A stretch of DNA of 64,000 nt, from contig LUZY01000003.1 of assembly GCA_001603805.1 (NCBI GenBank), forward strand, positions 248,001 through 312,000, written 5' to 3'. The translations under genes and the position numbers were made by a program. Positions 8,252 to 53,224 of this stretch are shown here, in pieces; position 1 is the stretch's first letter; the number at the start of each line of letters is the position of its first letter. The notes beneath the pieces were generated by a model, which made no database searches, was not told where the DNA came from, and saw nothing but the letters and a program-made list of their open reading frames with translations. The DNA comes from Deferribacterales bacterium Deferri_01. GTDB lineage: Bacteria; Chrysiogenota; Deferribacteres; Deferribacterales; Geovibrionaceae.

Positions 8252-8390
8252 ATAATTCCTGTCTGCAAAACGTTTTTTCATATATTTTAAAAAGTGATAT
8301 ATAATATCCATTGTCTGCCGCAATGATTTCTTTTGATTAATCTGCCGCAGGCTCTCTTTTGACATCTTAATTACATTGCTGGAGGAGCTA

Positions 8391-10211
8391 ATGTTTATCA
8401 CCGTAGCAGTTCTTTGTGTTTGTATAGTGTTTTTCATCAACGGGCGTGTCCGCTCTGATCTGGTGGCGCTATGTGCATTGATGATACTGATGCTTTCGGG
8501 GATACTCACTCCAGCAGAGGCTTTATCGAGTTTTTCCGACTCCCTTGTAATCATGGTCATAGGTTTGTTTGTGGTAAGCGGCGCTCTTCTGCGCACAGGG
8601 CTTGCTAAAATGGTCGGAAGCAGGCTTCTCAAACTGGCAGGAGCAAGTGAGGAAAGACTTTTTTTCCTTATAATTGCCGTTACCACAATGATCGGGGCTT
8701 TTATCAGCAATACAGGCACGGTTGCACTGGTTATGCCTATTGTTGTCAGCATGGCCATGCAGTCTGATATTAATGTCCGCAGGCTTCTTATGCCTCTTGC
8801 TTTTGCAGGAAGCATAGGCGGAATGTTTACCCTTATAGGCACTGCTCCGAACCTTGTTATTCAAGGTGTGCTGGTTCAGCATGGTTATACAGATCTCAGG
8901 TTTTTCTCCTTTGCTCCCACTGGGCTGGTTGTATTCTTTGTGGGAACACTGGGTTTTTGGCTGCTTTCAAAAATATTTTTATCGAAAAAAGTAGATATAA
9001 AAGAAAAACACCACAGCAAAAGCCTGAAAGAACTTGCAGAGGAATACCACATAATGAACAAAACATTCGTGGTAAAGGTCTCTGCCGGTTCTCCGGTTGA
9101 AGGAAAACCTCTGTGTGAGCTTAATATAACTGAAAAATACTCTGTCAATATTGCGAGAGTAATCAGAAAAGGAGAGCATGGCTTCATAATCCGGAATGAG
9201 GACACTGTGGAAACGGCAGGTCCTGAAACTGTGATACATGCCGATAACATTGTGGAAGTTCTGGGAAGTGCCGAAAACGTTGAACGGTTTATAGAGGACA
9301 ACTCGTTGAAGCTGATAAAAGGCGGAAGCGGAGAAATATCCGATACCGGCATTGCAGAGGCTGTCCTTTTGCCCAATTCCAAGCTTGTTGATGTTAAAAT
9401 AAGCGAATCCGGTTTCCGTAAAAAATATAATGTTAACATTCTCGCTGTTAATCACCGCAGAAAATATAAGTCGGATAATCTGGCGGATGAGGTGATGAGA
9501 GCAGGCGATGCTCTTTTGGTGCAGGGCAGGTGGGAAGACCTCGGACGGCTTAACAGGGACTACGAAAATATTGTTCTTGTCGGTCAGCCCCTTGATGAGG
9601 CTTCAAAAGTTACACTGAACCATAAGGCTCCGCTGGCGGCACTGATAATGTTTATTATGATAGCATCAATGGTCACAGAGACTCTGACGCCCCCTGTGGC
9701 TATAATGTGTGCCGGGCTTGCCATGGTTCTGACCGGATGTCTCAGGAATATGGAGGAAGCCTACCATCTCATAAACTGGGAGAGTGTGGTTCTTCTTGCT
9801 TCTATGCTGCCTATGTCCATTGCCCTCAATAAAACAGGGGCAGTGGAGCTGGTTACAAACAGTATTGTCAGCTCTTTCGGAGAAATGGGACCATATGCCC
9901 TTCTTGCGGGAATATACTTCAGTACATCTTTTCTGACTCTTTTTATCAGCAACACTGCCACTGCGGTGCTTTTTGCTCCCATAGCCCTTCAGGTTGCCGA
10001 AAGTATGGAGTTAAGTCCGTATCCGCTGCTCATGGCTGTAACAATTGCAGCCAGTATGTGTTTTGCAAGTCCTTTTTCCACACCTTCAAATGTGATGGTT
10101 ATGACACCGGGCAGGTACAAGTTTGCAGATTATTTAAAAGTTGGTGGTCCGATGCAGATTGTTATGGGTATTGTGATGATATTTGTATTGCCGCTTATAT
10201 TTCCTTTTTAG
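8391..10211 (+). CDS. SLC13/DASS-family anion transporter with two RCK-C domains
   Basis: An inner-membrane permease of 606 residues. The start is the ATG at 8391 behind GGAGGAG; five codons upstream another ATG lacks that spacing. Two transport halves, each with an SNT motif on a re-entrant loop (ISNTGTVALVMP near residue 108 and ISNTATAVLFAP near 520), are typical of divalent anion:sodium symporters. Between them lies a cytoplasmic insert (about residues 205-410) with two TrkA-C/RCK-C-like domains (for example VSAGSPVEGKPLCELNI and LVDVKISESGFRKKYNV), as in the long prokaryotic forms. Substrates in this family include sulfate, dicarboxylates and other anions; none can be assigned here. The next gene on the same strand is proB, 450 bases away behind a repeat array. 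Confidence 0.9.
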   Translation: MFITVAVLCVCIVFFINGRVRSDLVALCALMILMLSGILTPAEALSSFSDSLVIMVIGLFVVSGALLRTGLAKMVGSRLLKLAGASEERLFFLIIAVTTMIGAFISNTGTVALVMPIVVSMAMQSDINVRRLLMPLAFAGSIGGMFTLIGTAPNLVIQGVLVQHGYTDLRFFSFAPTGLVVFFVGTLGFWLLSKIFLSKKVDIKEKHHSKSLKELAEEYHIMNKTFVVKVSAGSPVEGKPLCELNITEKYSVNIARVIRKGEHGFIIRNEDTVETAGPETVIHADNIVEVLGSAENVERFIEDNSLKLIKGGSGEISDTGIAEAVLLPNSKLVDVKISESGFRKKYNVNILAVNHRRKYKSDNLADEVMRAGDALLVQGRWEDLGRLNRDYENIVLVGQPLDEASKVTLNHKAPLAALIMFIMIASMVTETLTPPVAIMCAGLAMVLTGCLRNMEEAYHLINWESVVLLASMLPMSIALNKTGAVELVTNSIVSSFGEMGPYALLAGIYFSTSFLTLFISNTATAVLFAPIALQVAESMELSPYPLLMAVTIAASMCFASPFSTPSNVMVMTPGRYKFADYLKVGGPMQIVMGIVMIFVLPLIFPF

Positions 10212-10264
10212 GTGTTTCTGTGGAGTTTGAAGTTTATTTAAAACATTGACAACAGAGGGATAGA

Positions 10265-10336
10265 ATGATACTGAACATTAAATCTGCAGGTTCTAATCTG
10301 TATGCACCTGCTGCATTTTTGTATAGTGTTCCCTGA
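10265..10336 (+). CDS. Possible 23-residue small ORF
   Basis: ATG at 10265 is preceded by GAGGGA (10255-10260), and a TTGACA hexamer lies just upstream. It encodes 23 residues ending ...FLYSVP and stops with TGA. It has no family match that I know. It could be a leader peptide for the repeat/proB transcript or chance; only the ribosome site supports it. Confidence 0.25.
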   Translation: MILNIKSAGSNLYAPAAFLYSVP

Positions 10337-10394: not shown

Positions 10395-10423
10395 AAACAA
10401 AACCACAGGATGTATGTTTTACA
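10395..10423 (+). repeat. Partial copy (3' part) of the 94-base structured repeat, proB array
   Basis: Matches only the A/T-stem end of the unit (ACCACAGGATGTATG followed by TTTTACATTAATAT). Its left half has decayed, so the stem is incomplete. The hldD array also begins with a 3' part alone. Confidence 0.75.
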
Positions 10424-10432
10424 TTAATATAA

Positions 10433-10526
10433 AGGTTCCATGGATGGAACCTCGCCGTGCGTAGCGAAGCCGTGTTTATCACGGCGCGAGCGTGTATGTA
10501 AAAACCACAGGATGTATGTTTTTACA
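10433..10526 (+). repeat. Structured repeat unit 1, proB array
   Basis: 94 bases. Stem I AGGTTCCAT-GG-ATGGAACCT is a perfect 9-bp palindrome. A conserved block TCGCCGTGCGTAGCGAAG follows (itself a small TCGC/GCGA stem). Stem II is GCCGTG-TTTAT-CACGGC. A second conserved block GCGAGCGTGTATG leads into stem III, TGTAAAAAC...GTTTTTACA with AGGATGTA in the loop. Unit 2 and two units upstream of hldD share this design. Confidence 0.92.
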
Positions 10527-10535
10527 TTAATATAT

Positions 10536-10561
10536 AAGTGCATGCACGATTTCATGGACTA
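10536..10561 (+). other. Spacer unique to the proB array
   Basis: About 26 bases separate the two proB units and are absent from the hldD array. It contains the perfect 10-base palindrome GTGCATGCAC (10539-10548) and the word TTTCATGGACTA before the next unit. Confidence 0.5.
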
Positions 10562-10655
10562 AGGTTCCATGGATGGAACCTCGCCGTGCGTAGCGAAGCC
10601 GTGTTTATCACGGCGCGAGCGTGTATGTAAAAACCACAGGATGTATGTTTTTACA
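10562..10655 (+). repeat. Structured repeat unit 2, proB array
   Basis: Identical to unit 1 over all 94 bases as far as I can read. Its stem III ends only 10 bases before the proB start codon, so the repeat forms the proB 5' untranslated region. Confidence 0.92.
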
Positions 10656-10665
10656 TTAATAAAAT

Positions 10666-11811
10666 ATGAGACATTTACCTGAAATAGAAACCCTTGTTGT
10701 CAAAATAGGAAGCAATATTCTTCTCTGTGAGAACGAAGGGCTCAACTTAGACTTTATCCGTTCTCTTGCTTCTTCAGTCGCTGATGTTCAGAAAAAAATT
10801 AAAAATATAGTAATAGTTTCTTCCGGTGCTGTGGGAGCGGGTTTCAGGCATTTAGGCTTTTCTTCCAGACCAAAAAACATCACAGACAGACAGGCATGTG
10901 CAGCCATAGGGCAAGCTCGTCTTATATGGCTGTATGAAAAAGAGTTTGAGAATTTCGGAAAGAGTGTTGCGCAGATTCTCATCACGAAAGATGATTTTTC
11001 CAATAGCCGCAGGTGTCTCAATGCACGTTATGCTATCCGGCGCCTTCATGAGTTTGGCGTGATACCGATTATAAATGAAAACGACACTGTAGTTGTTGAT
11101 GAGCTTAAATATTTTGAATCATTCGGTGATAATGACAATCTCTCTGCTCTGGTTGCCGGGCTTATAGGGGCTGATCTTTTGCTCATTCTTTCTGATGTTG
11201 AGGGACTTTACGATAAGAACCCTTCGGTTTATCCGGATGCAAAGCTGATACACGATGTTCAGTATATAGATGAAAACCTTATGAATGCCGCCGGGGAGTC
11301 TGTGAGCGGAGTTGGTACAGGCGGTATGGGCTCAAAGCTCAAGGCTGCAAAAAAGGCTCTGGACGCCGGATGCCATGTGGGTATAATCAACGGACGTAAT
11401 ACAGAGAATATAACCAGATTCATAAACGGCGATCTTGTGGGAACATACTTCTCACACACTGAAGATGTTTACCGTATCAGAAAATTCTGGATAGCTCACG
11501 CAGCAAGTGTTAAGGGGACTATTTCCATTGACGCAGGCGCGGTTAAGGCTATAGTAGATATGAAGAAGTCGCTTCTCCCGTCCGGAGTGGTAAATATCGA
11601 GGGACGTTTTGGTATCGGGGACATCATCTCCGTGACAGACAGCGCAGGGCATGAAATCGCCAAAGGTAAAACACGCTACTCCAGTAAGGATATGAGGCAG
11701 ATTAAAGGCAGAAAATCCGCTGAGATCTTCGATTTACTCGGCTATAAATTTTCAGATGAAGTGATACACAGAGATGACCTTGTGGTATCTCTTGAAAGGG
11801 GGCACGGATGA
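10666..11811 (+). CDS. proB: Glutamate 5-kinase with PUA domain
   Basis: First step of proline synthesis: phosphorylates glutamate with ATP. 381 residues, the usual length for the long form: an amino-acid-kinase domain (about 1-265; VVKIGSNILL near 11, VSSGAVGAG near 50, INENDTVVVDE near 140, VGTGGMGSKLKAA near 215) and a C-terminal PUA domain (about 285-370; VKGTISIDAGAVKAI). The ATG at 10666 is the only start candidate fitting the family, and there is no Shine-Dalgarno sequence in the 20 bases before it, because the repeat array ends right there. Translation may rely on an A/T-rich unstructured start or on the repeat. proA follows with a 4-base overlap. Confidence 0.96.
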   Translation: MRHLPEIETLVVKIGSNILLCENEGLNLDFIRSLASSVADVQKKIKNIVIVSSGAVGAGFRHLGFSSRPKNITDRQACAAIGQARLIWLYEKEFENFGKSVAQILITKDDFSNSRRCLNARYAIRRLHEFGVIPIINENDTVVVDELKYFESFGDNDNLSALVAGLIGADLLLILSDVEGLYDKNPSVYPDAKLIHDVQYIDENLMNAAGESVSGVGTGGMGSKLKAAKKALDAGCHVGIINGRNTENITRFINGDLVGTYFSHTEDVYRIRKFWIAHAASVKGTISIDAGAVKAIVDMKKSLLPSGVVNIEGRFGIGDIISVTDSAGHEIAKGKTRYSSKDMRQIKGRKSAEIFDLLGYKFSDEVIHRDDLVVSLERGHG

Positions 11812-13043
11812 AGGAACTTTTTGAAAAAGCCAGAGCCACTTCCTACAAGCTGATGAATCTGAATACAAAAGTTAAAAACGAGGCACTCGCAGCAATTGCC
11901 CGTAAGCTTGACGAACACCGGGAACTGATTAAAACTGAAAACGCCAAAGACCTGAAGGCGGGCGTTGAAGCAGGCTTAAGCTCTTCTCTCATGGACAGGC
12001 TTAAGCTGGACGACAAAGCCATAAACTCCATGATTAAGGCTGTAAACGAGATAAAAGAACAGACTGACCCTGTTGGTTCTGTTGTTGATGGATACAAGCG
12101 CCCCAACGGGCTTTATATAACTAAGATTCGGGTTCCTCTCGGTGTTGTGGGGATTATTTACGAGTCAAGACCTAATGTAACCATAGACGCTGCGGCACTC
12201 TGCCTTAAGTCCGGAAATGTTTCCATACTCAGAGGCGGAAAAGAGGCTATACATTCAAATGCGTGCCTTGGCAAAATAATGGAAGAGGCGATAGCCGAAG
12301 CCGGTCTGCCGGAAGGTGTTGTGAATATTGTTCCTGACACTGACAGGTTCAGAGTAACTGAAATGCTTCAGGCAAAAGGATATATCGATATAATCATTCC
12401 CAGAGGCGGAGCAGGGCTGATTAAGTTCTGCGATGAAAACACCTGTATACCCCTTGTTAAGCATGATAACGGAATATGCCATGTTTACGTCGATAAGGAT
12501 GCTGATATCGAAAAAGCGCTTAAAATAGCACGAAATGCTAAGGTTCAGCGTCCGGGTGTGTGTAATGCCGCAGAAACTCTTCTGGTGCATGAAGATGTTG
12601 CGGGTGCATTTTTACCTTCCTTCGTTGAGTGTACCTCAAAAGACGGTCTTGAGATCAGGGGCTGTGAGAGAACGCTCAGTTTTGTTGATGTCAAGCCTGC
12701 AACAGAAGAAGACTGGCGCACGGAATATCTTGATCTTATTATTTCCATTAAAGTGGTTTCCTCAATGGAGGAGGCTTTGGTACACATAAACAGATATGGC
12801 TCCGGTCATTCCGAAGCGATTATTACAGAAAACTATACAAGTGCGAGATACTTTATGGACAGGGCGGACGCTTCTGCCGTGTTTGTGAACGCATCCACAA
12901 GATTTAATGATGGCGGGGAGTTCGGATTAGGGGCTGAGATAGGTATCAGCACGCAGAAACTTCACTGCCGCGGACCTATGGGCGCCTTTGACCTGACAAC
13001 TACAAAATATCAGGTTTACGGCGACGGTCACATTCGGGAATAA
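11808..13043 (+). CDS. proA: Gamma-glutamyl phosphate reductase
   Basis: Second step of proline synthesis: NADPH-dependent reduction of glutamyl-5-phosphate to the semialdehyde. 411 residues, standard length. The aldehyde-dehydrogenase fold is recognisable: GVVGIIYESRPNVT (about 110), KSGNVSILRGGKEA (about 135), the catalytic cysteine in QRPGVCNAAETLL (about 252), and GAEIGISTQKLHCRGPMG near the end. The ATG overlaps the proB stop (ATGA), so proB and proA are translationally coupled. Together they supply the semialdehyde that cyclises to the proC substrate; proC is not in this window. Confidence 0.97.
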   Translation: MKELFEKARATSYKLMNLNTKVKNEALAAIARKLDEHRELIKTENAKDLKAGVEAGLSSSLMDRLKLDDKAINSMIKAVNEIKEQTDPVGSVVDGYKRPNGLYITKIRVPLGVVGIIYESRPNVTIDAAALCLKSGNVSILRGGKEAIHSNACLGKIMEEAIAEAGLPEGVVNIVPDTDRFRVTEMLQAKGYIDIIIPRGGAGLIKFCDENTCIPLVKHDNGICHVYVDKDADIEKALKIARNAKVQRPGVCNAAETLLVHEDVAGAFLPSFVECTSKDGLEIRGCERTLSFVDVKPATEEDWRTEYLDLIISIKVVSSMEEALVHINRYGSGHSEAIITENYTSARYFMDRADASAVFVNASTRFNDGGEFGLGAEIGISTQKLHCRGPMGAFDLTTTKYQVYGDGHIRE

Positions 13044-14541: not shown

Positions 14542-15317
14542 TCGGGCAGATAGACTATGCAAACGTCTACCCCATCTTTCATCAACTGAACAAACACAGC
14601 GAATACAAATTTGTTAAAGGTGTTCCTTCGTATCTTAATAAAGCTCTGAGGGAAGGGGTCATAGACCTTTCTCCGTGCAGCAGTATTGAATACGCCAAAT
14701 CATTTGAAGACTACATCCTGATCCCCGGAATCTCCATAAGCAGTACAGAAAAAGTAAAAAGCGTGATGCTTTATTCTGAAGTTCCCATCGAAGAGCTTAA
14801 AGGGCGTAAGGTTTTTCTCACCGGAGAATCCGGCACGAGTGTTGTTCTGTTCAGGATACTGGTAAATGAAATGTACGGTTTTCAGCCTGAATTTACAGAT
14901 CAGCAGGATGAGGCAGATGCTAAGGTTCTGATAGGGGATAAAGCACTTTTTGAGCTTTATAACGGGCAGAATAAGCATGTGTATGACCTCTGCACTCTTT
15001 GGAATGCTTTCACTGGTCTGCCGTTTGTTTTTGCTCTGTGGATAGCCAGAAAAGACTCAGTTAAAGAGAAAAGAACCGAGTTTGAAATGTTTGCAGGACA
15101 GCTTGATGAGATAAAAAAGGACAGCAAGTCAAACCTTGCTGCTTTGCTTGATCATTACTCAATGAAGGGGCTTACTTCATACCAGATAATCGACTACTGG
15201 GAAACAATGGACTACAGCCTGTCAGACAGGCACGTTCAGGGGCTTCTGCGTTTTTACAGCTATGCCAGAAAATACGGAGCCATAAAAGAGGTTCCGCCTA
15301 TTAATTTCTTTATATAA
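14532..15317 (+). CDS. mqnA: Chorismate dehydratase, futalosine pathway
   Basis: First committed step of the futalosine route to menaquinone: chorismate to 3-enolpyruvyl-benzoate. 261 residues. The family pattern of a periplasmic-binding-protein-like fold is visible: IGQIDYANVYPIFHQL at the start, GVPSYLNKALREGVIDLSPCSS (about 36-57), VMLYSEVPIEELKGRKV, TGESGTSVVLFRILV, and DKALFELYNGQ with a late IDYWETMDYSLS. MqnD is a related family but lacks this N-terminal pattern. Its presence implies menaquinone-based respiration without the MenFDHCEBA route. The ATG lies inside trmL, so it is the last gene of the proB operon, followed by a terminator. Confidence 0.9.
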   Translation: MLVIGQIDYANVYPIFHQLNKHSEYKFVKGVPSYLNKALREGVIDLSPCSSIEYAKSFEDYILIPGISISSTEKVKSVMLYSEVPIEELKGRKVFLTGESGTSVVLFRILVNEMYGFQPEFTDQQDEADAKVLIGDKALFELYNGQNKHVYDLCTLWNAFTGLPFVFALWIARKDSVKEKRTEFEMFAGQLDEIKKDSKSNLAALLDHYSMKGLTSYQIIDYWETMDYSLSDRHVQGLLRFYSYARKYGAIKEVPPINFFI

Positions 15318-15330
15318 TTCTTGAAACAAG

Positions 15331-15366
15331 AAAGCCCCTGAAAGCAGATGCTCAAAGGGGCTTTTC
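15331..15366. terminator. Bidirectional terminator between mqnA and amtB
   Basis: Stem AAAGCCCCT/AGGGGCTTT with a 16-base loop, T-rich on both sides. It separates the convergent mqnA and amtB genes and can serve both. Confidence 0.85.
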
Positions 15367-52954: not shown

Positions 52955-52993
52955 GAGCGTGTATGTAAAAAAAACAGGATGTTTTTTTTTGCA
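52955..52993 (+). repeat. Partial copy (3' part) of the structured repeat, hldD array
   Basis: GAGCGTGTATG followed by the A/T stem and TTTGCA, 25 bases after the hldE stop. Just before it, the word GTTTACTATGCTGTGAGCG looks like a decayed stem II. Confidence 0.75.
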
Positions 52994-53002
52994 TTATCAA
53001 AT

Positions 53003-53095
53003 AAGTCCCATGGAAGGGACTTCGCCGTGCGTAGCGAAGGGCTGTTTACCAGCCCGCGAGCGTGTATGTAAAAAAACAGGATGTATTTTTTTGCA
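53003..53095 (+). repeat. Structured repeat unit 1, hldD array
   Basis: 93 bases with the same order of elements as the proB units: stem I AAGTCCC-ATGGAA-GGGACTT, conserved block TTCGCCGTGCGTAGCGAAG, stem II GGGCTG-TTTAC-CAGCCC, conserved block GCGAGCGTGTATG, stem III TGTAAAAAAA...TTTTTTTGCA. The alignment with the proB units over the first 70 bases needs no gap. Confidence 0.92.
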
Positions 53096-53104
53096 TTATC
53101 AAAT

Positions 53105-53198
53105 AAGTCCCATGGAAGGGACTTCGCCGTGCGTAGCGAAGGGCTGTTTACCAGCCCGCGAGCGTGTATGTAAAAAAAACAGGATGTATTTTTTTACA
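53105..53198 (+). repeat. Structured repeat unit 2, hldD array
   Basis: 94 bases, almost identical to the first hldD unit; the A run is one base longer and the stem III end is TTTTTTTACA instead of TTTTTTTGCA, which turns a G-T pair into an A-T pair. It ends 26 bases before the hldD start codon. Confidence 0.92.
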
Positions 53199-53224
53199 TT
53201 ATCAAATTAAGGAAGGTATTCATT

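Follow-up and report, generated by a model that had tools for sequence, protein, structure and literature searches.

The proB gene of Deferribacterales bacterium Deferri_01 is separated from an upstream SLC13/CitMHS-type transporter gene by an interval that carries a structured repeat array (Table 1; the window is the whole 64 000-nucleotide stretch of DNA that was analysed). Two units, each of 101 nt, 100% identical and 129 nt apart, follow the remnant of an incomplete first unit. A sequence-only reading had proposed such an array, with two identical 94-base units, a preceding 3' fragment, an end 10 bases before the proB ATG and no remaining Shine-Dalgarno site. The array is real, the units are identical and the fragment is a partial third copy that starts at 10399; the length of 94 was slightly short. 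Stem III of the last unit does end about 10 nt 5' of the ATG (10666), and no Shine-Dalgarno site of proB was found in its own genome or in two sister species.

Table 1. Features of the proB region and of two further sites in the window.
Feature	Position	Strand	Remarks
SLC13/CitMHS-type transporter gene with TrkA_C domains	8376..10211	+	upstream of the proB array
Candidate proB promoter block	10239..10270	+	TTGACA at 10246-10251; conserved in three-species alignment
Stem-III fragment, incomplete first unit	10399..10431	+	GGA at 10408-10410
proB unit 1	10432..10532	+	stem I 10433-10452 (GGA 10442-10444), core 10453-10469, stem II 10469-10485, core strand 10486-10495, stem III 10496-10527 (GGA 10510-10512)
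Spacer separating proB units 1 and 2	10533..10560	+	
proB unit 2	10561..10661	+	identical to unit 1; stem I 10562-10581 (GGA 10571-10573), core 10582-10598, stem II 10598-10614, core strand 10615-10624, stem III 10625-10656 (GGA 10639-10641)
proB, glutamate 5-kinase (AA_kinase + PUA)	10666..11811	+	without Shine-Dalgarno site
Empty site	15277..15353	+	stop codon to intrinsic-terminator-like hairpin; three-unit array there in sister species G002
Partial unit (end of core strand + stem III), start of hldD array	52957..53000	+	directly 3' of hldE stop codon
hldD array unit 1	53001..53100	+	stems differ from proB units through compensatory changes
hldD array unit 2	53103..53203	+	ends 21 nt before hldD ATG (53225), Shine-Dalgarno site in between

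A block with TTGACA lies about 130 nt upstream of the first stem-III fragment. Since the units sit between this block and proB in all three congeneric species, 'leader' is a fair word for them at this gene; the claim that the array forms the whole 5' leader is not quite correct, as the block is further upstream. If the block is the promoter, for which it is a candidate, the leader would probably be about 390 nt long, and the array is probably a 5'UTR case. The consensus promoter scan did not score the TTGACA-block pair (10239-10270) as a promoter. ProB itself is 91-93% identical among the three species. Their leaders hardly differ in the last GGA hairpin and in the SD-less start region, but do differ in stems I and II. 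No terminator-like site (GC stem then U-tract) was found in the proB leader.

Within 10656-10680, proB lacks a Shine-Dalgarno site in all three species, whereas most array-preceded genes have one. An alternative module, a hairpin plus TTTCTGCAC(A/C)GAGCTTGCT, replaces or interrupts the core strand beside stem III at proB of G002 and G001 and at C5:64369 of the present genome (L340, L341 and L212). Another dispersed repeat, GAGAGATTGCTTCACCCTTTCAGGGTTCGCARTGACG, is nested in some flanks and spacers, at G002 loci such as L272 and L322 and in the G001 proB leader (L341).

Counting the core 18-mer in the window gives four occurrences (chance 0.02), one pair ahead of proB and the other ahead of hldD. 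Searching the 2.85-Mb genome for this conserved block with up to three mismatches gave 117 matches, against four for a reversed control, and a covariance model built from 17 units identified 135 units in 67 arrays of one to five. The units are dense in all three genomes of the genus, with at least 101-150 per sister species, so the possibility that they occur only here and at hldD, with no conservation in relatives, is contradicted. One genome from another genus of the family has 5-8 copies, and at E<=1e-6 there are none in the other 47 genomes of the phylum. A broader model, trained partly on some of the diverged relatives that it found, detected elements that share the layout: G003 has 16, and other genomes in the family and order have a few each. 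G003, which belongs to another genus, has a repeat family of its own (L177, L192, L195, L196) that reads GGA hairpin, GCTTGCGTAAGTGAGAG core, stem II, GGA hairpin.

No Rfam family was matched at the gathering score or at E<=1, the exact pattern found no viral copy in IMG/VR, and the 17-mer core gave only single, chance-like matches in unrelated phyla across named genomes. Literature searches on CsrA with intergenic repeats, and on the suspected genus or order with repeats, found no description of such units. The family of dispersed structured RNA repeats that they form is real, dense in the genus and apparently undescribed.

Each unit is about 100 nt long and consists of three hairpins around a conserved core. 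The hairpins fold as had been described: a single unit gives z = -3.1 when read on the sense strand and -5.5 on the other strand, and the whole proB leader gives -5.3. Among 17 aligned units 89% of cells are paired and 129 cells are changed on both sides, with strong compensatory change in all three stems. The covariation score is 0.633, compared with 0.206 for shuffled units and never above 0.195 for slid versions; the structure was drawn from the same 17 units, which flatters the score somewhat against the slid controls, yet the excess of compensatory cells is still large. Over 118 distinct units there are 134 G-U cells and 52 A-C cells. This excess argues for the sense strand folding as RNA rather than a DNA cruciform, pointing to sense RNA as the folding strand, although a strand bias in mutation may add to it. 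Across units the core and the GCGAGCGUGU strand hardly vary; at the sole core position that is free, a bulge next to putative tandem A.G/G.A pairs can be drawn. With stem letters that vary freely while the fold is kept, the unit looks like a selected RNA part. A second unit type is present amid standard units (L256 2296-2381 and L260 spacers), with the same GGA hairpins and another core (CGGAGTGAGAGCAGCAAG... / ...CTGCGAGTG).

In the present genome and G002 the upstream gene is on the strand of the unit in 119 of 145 cases (82%). Co-directional intergenic regions hold 79 sense and 18 antisense units (p=3e-10), and convergent regions carry units more often than divergent ones (40 versus 8). Units just after stop codons number 36 (11.6 expected) and those 10-25 nt before start codons 28 (10.3 expected), the genes having been called by a simple codon-usage caller, so that individual distances may be off. 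Many arrays have no sense gene downstream, and many are in 3'UTRs or between convergent genes. Because the arrays follow the transcription of the upstream gene and cluster at stops and starts, their positions argue that they are transcribed 3'UTR or intercistronic elements. At the site that is empty in our window, the G002 array reads as a transcribed 3'UTR element, since it lies between the stop codon and a preserved terminator-like hairpin.

Two other accounts of this placement were rejected. Arrays are co-oriented with replication in 59 of 81 cases (terminus position assumed), but replication strand is not the cause of orientation, as lagging-strand arrays still follow the upstream gene (15/22). 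Nor are the units intrinsic terminators: no GC stem with U-tract was found, and the G002 array precedes a separate, preserved terminator-like hairpin.

The sequence-only reading had called the array a proB leader and had offered a mobile REP/MITE-like element, an RNA regulator or an mRNA stability device as its identity. As a description of the family, 'proB leader' captures one placement only, since the units go with the sense strand of the gene upstream and not with leaders. A described REPIN or MITE finds no backing as far as tested. Copy number, covariation and sense-strand bias together uphold a structured repeat, dispersal of a REP-like kind and an RNA-level role.

The loops suggest what this role may be. 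That of hairpin I is mostly C-ANGGAN-G and that of hairpin III mostly ACAGGAUGU, giving for both a consensus of C-A-N-GGA-N-G, a predicted CsrA/RsmA-type site. Counted over per-array sequences, GGA is in the loop in 78/97 cases for hairpin I, 82/96 for hairpin III and 2/91 for hairpin II. CA(N)GGANG is found in at least one of hairpins I and III in 140 of 141 arrays from two species; its shuffled expectation in hairpin I is 1.5%. The stem-I GGA loop is retained in most of the diverged relatives that belong to other genera. The units thus display what marks a CsrA target, multiple hairpins with GGA in the loop and the CANGGANG consensus, and the single CsrA encoded in the genome matches solved CsrA/RsmE chains. 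CANGGANG hexaloops have been described as high-affinity CsrA/RsmE targets, and an mRNA leader can itself titrate CsrA (PMC4894983). From the loop sequences we infer that the GGA hairpins would bind CsrA.

The best explanation, to which we give a probability of about one half, is that units within mRNAs bind a CsrA-type protein, with local control and collective titration as the consequences. At proB, CsrA would be placed beside the SD-less start and would control translation or mRNA stability. Hundreds of sites across the genome would share and titrate the protein, perhaps making up a distributed sponge to which many mRNAs contribute, in place of a single CsrB-like sRNA; a dedicated, separate sRNA is not what we found, the units forming 67 sense-oriented arrays located at the ends of genes. 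Dispersal would have followed a route that leaves long host duplications. Several observations run counter to CsrA binding. Hairpin III loops are mostly five-membered and not hexaloops, and CsrA does not explain the strictly conserved core and hairpin II. With about 68 nt between them, the two GGA sites within a unit exceed the optimum of 18 nt (PMC4894983). Few or no copies are present elsewhere in the family, which means that CsrA function in general does not need the repeats. G002 has syntenic counterparts, mostly carrying other stems, for at least 20 of the 67 arrays, a lower bound drawn from the best 150 G002 matches; many sites therefore appear dispensable.

How the arrays arise was considered from their flanks, examined in stretches around the copies. 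Units within one array are usually nearly identical and spacers match the local flank in 27 of 54 cases (a lenient test, some spacers having only a few bases). These two features suggest that arrays seem to grow by tandem duplication of the element plus flank; the same 27 copies of local flank led us to reject the idea that spacers are an element of their own. Of 117 arrays, 17 are enclosed by direct repeats of 26-76 bp of host DNA, compared with 0 of 346 controls (>=18 bp); these repeats often correspond to the upstream gene's 3' end, stop codon included. No long direct repeat was detected in the remaining 100. The enclosing repeats could stem from long target duplication on insertion or from tandem duplication followed by unit loss. 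Two G002 copies, at 1951938 and 2831334, have like stems I and III and wholly different stems II, with homology that does not extend past the stem I and stem III borders. Over 141 arrays the observed and expected numbers of pairs sharing stems are 38 and 44 for I with II, 5 and 4.9 for I with III, and 9 and 6.7 for II with III. The three stems assort independently, as if exchanged as modules, which fits wholesale exchange of hairpins at the conserved cores through gene conversion or template switching. Alternatively, compensatory evolution may have been very fast, or units may have inserted again, independently, at the same sites. Multi-unit G002 arrays near 12902, 1334, 2119689 and 2407956 are alike over about 500 bp including spacers (66-88% identity), a likeness that hints at larger dispersed segments.

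The hairpins might instead block exonucleases or set differential stability of flanking messages, as a REP/BIME-like mRNA element without CsrA, the GGA loops serving the fold or another protein. The strong folds, the arrays right 3' of stop codons and between co-directional genes, and the one between a stop codon and a preserved terminator are all consistent with this. Such a device needs stable stems, however; it would not call for GGA to be fixed in two loops or for an unpaired core to stay invariant. We regard this reading as rather unlikely. A device specific to proB, a cis-regulatory riboswitch, attenuator or terminator, would suit the position in the probable 5'UTR directly before the SD-less start codon. 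Against it, 67 arrays stand beside other genes, and many of those lack a sense gene downstream; the leader contains no terminator-like site and gave no Rfam match. The genome-wide distribution makes a gene-specific device very unlikely.

The host direct repeats, together with empty sites in the comparison of sister species, the abrupt ends of homology at the stem I and stem III borders and the many arrays not common to G002, are what a selfish miniature mobile element would produce, its fold recognised by a mobility enzyme that acts on RNA or single-stranded DNA and its sense bias reflecting tolerated or preferred target sites. We consider it improbable. Of the two transposase families searched, Y1/RAYT (PF01797) has no match in G000, G001 or G002, though it has matches in other genomes of the order, and DDE_Tnp_1 (IS4/IS1634-type) has none in the genus. 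An inverted-repeat search of the proB region revealed only internal palindromes and no terminal inverted repeats. Near-identical copies at different loci are almost absent, and the near-invariant proB GGA hairpin of the three species suggests constraint at the level of the host. A bolder proposal, speculative but possible, combines mobility with CsrA: an undescribed class of transcribed repeats that would spread without a recognisable transposase, leave long host duplications, swap hairpin modules and give dozens of mRNAs CsrA hairpins, forming a distributed CsrA sponge.

If CsrA binding is true, the units would link two subjects that are usually kept apart, dispersed bacterial repeats and the global regulators that bind RNA, and would show a way in which a genome can multiply the targets of a regulator. 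That covarying hairpins assort independently, and that long host duplications occur with no recognised transposase, raises the question of how short structured repeats spread.

Among known systems, CsrB/C, RsmX/Y/Z and the Campylobacter jejuni flaA leader share several GGA hairpins with a CANGGANG loop and a host CsrA, and a leader that titrates CsrA has precedent (PMC4894983). In contrast to CsrB/C and RsmX/Y/Z, there are here more than 100 dispersed UTR units, each of which also has a conserved core and a hairpin that lacks GGA, and CsrA binding is predicted. REP, REPIN and BIME elements are likewise extragenic palindromic units, dispersed in about a hundred copies or more; they too occur in tandem arrays and may act on mRNA. 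The present units differ in having three different hairpins in direct order with no inverted pair, stem sequences that are not conserved, a sense-strand bias and no RAYT/Y1 transposase in the genus. Long host direct repeats of variable length recall IS1634/IS1549-type elements, with target duplications of 8-514 bp (PMC2266710), but our repeat has neither a transposase gene nor a terminal inverted repeat, and DDE_Tnp_1 is unmatched in the genus. A MITE of a DDE transposon would have a short target duplication of fixed length, unlike the variable 26-76 bp here. The TAACTGA intergenic direct repeats of Beggiatoaceae also form many intergenic tandem sets before start codons and have been proposed as translational regulator sites, CsrA having been found unlikely there (PMC4679880); those repeats are heptamers without GGA.
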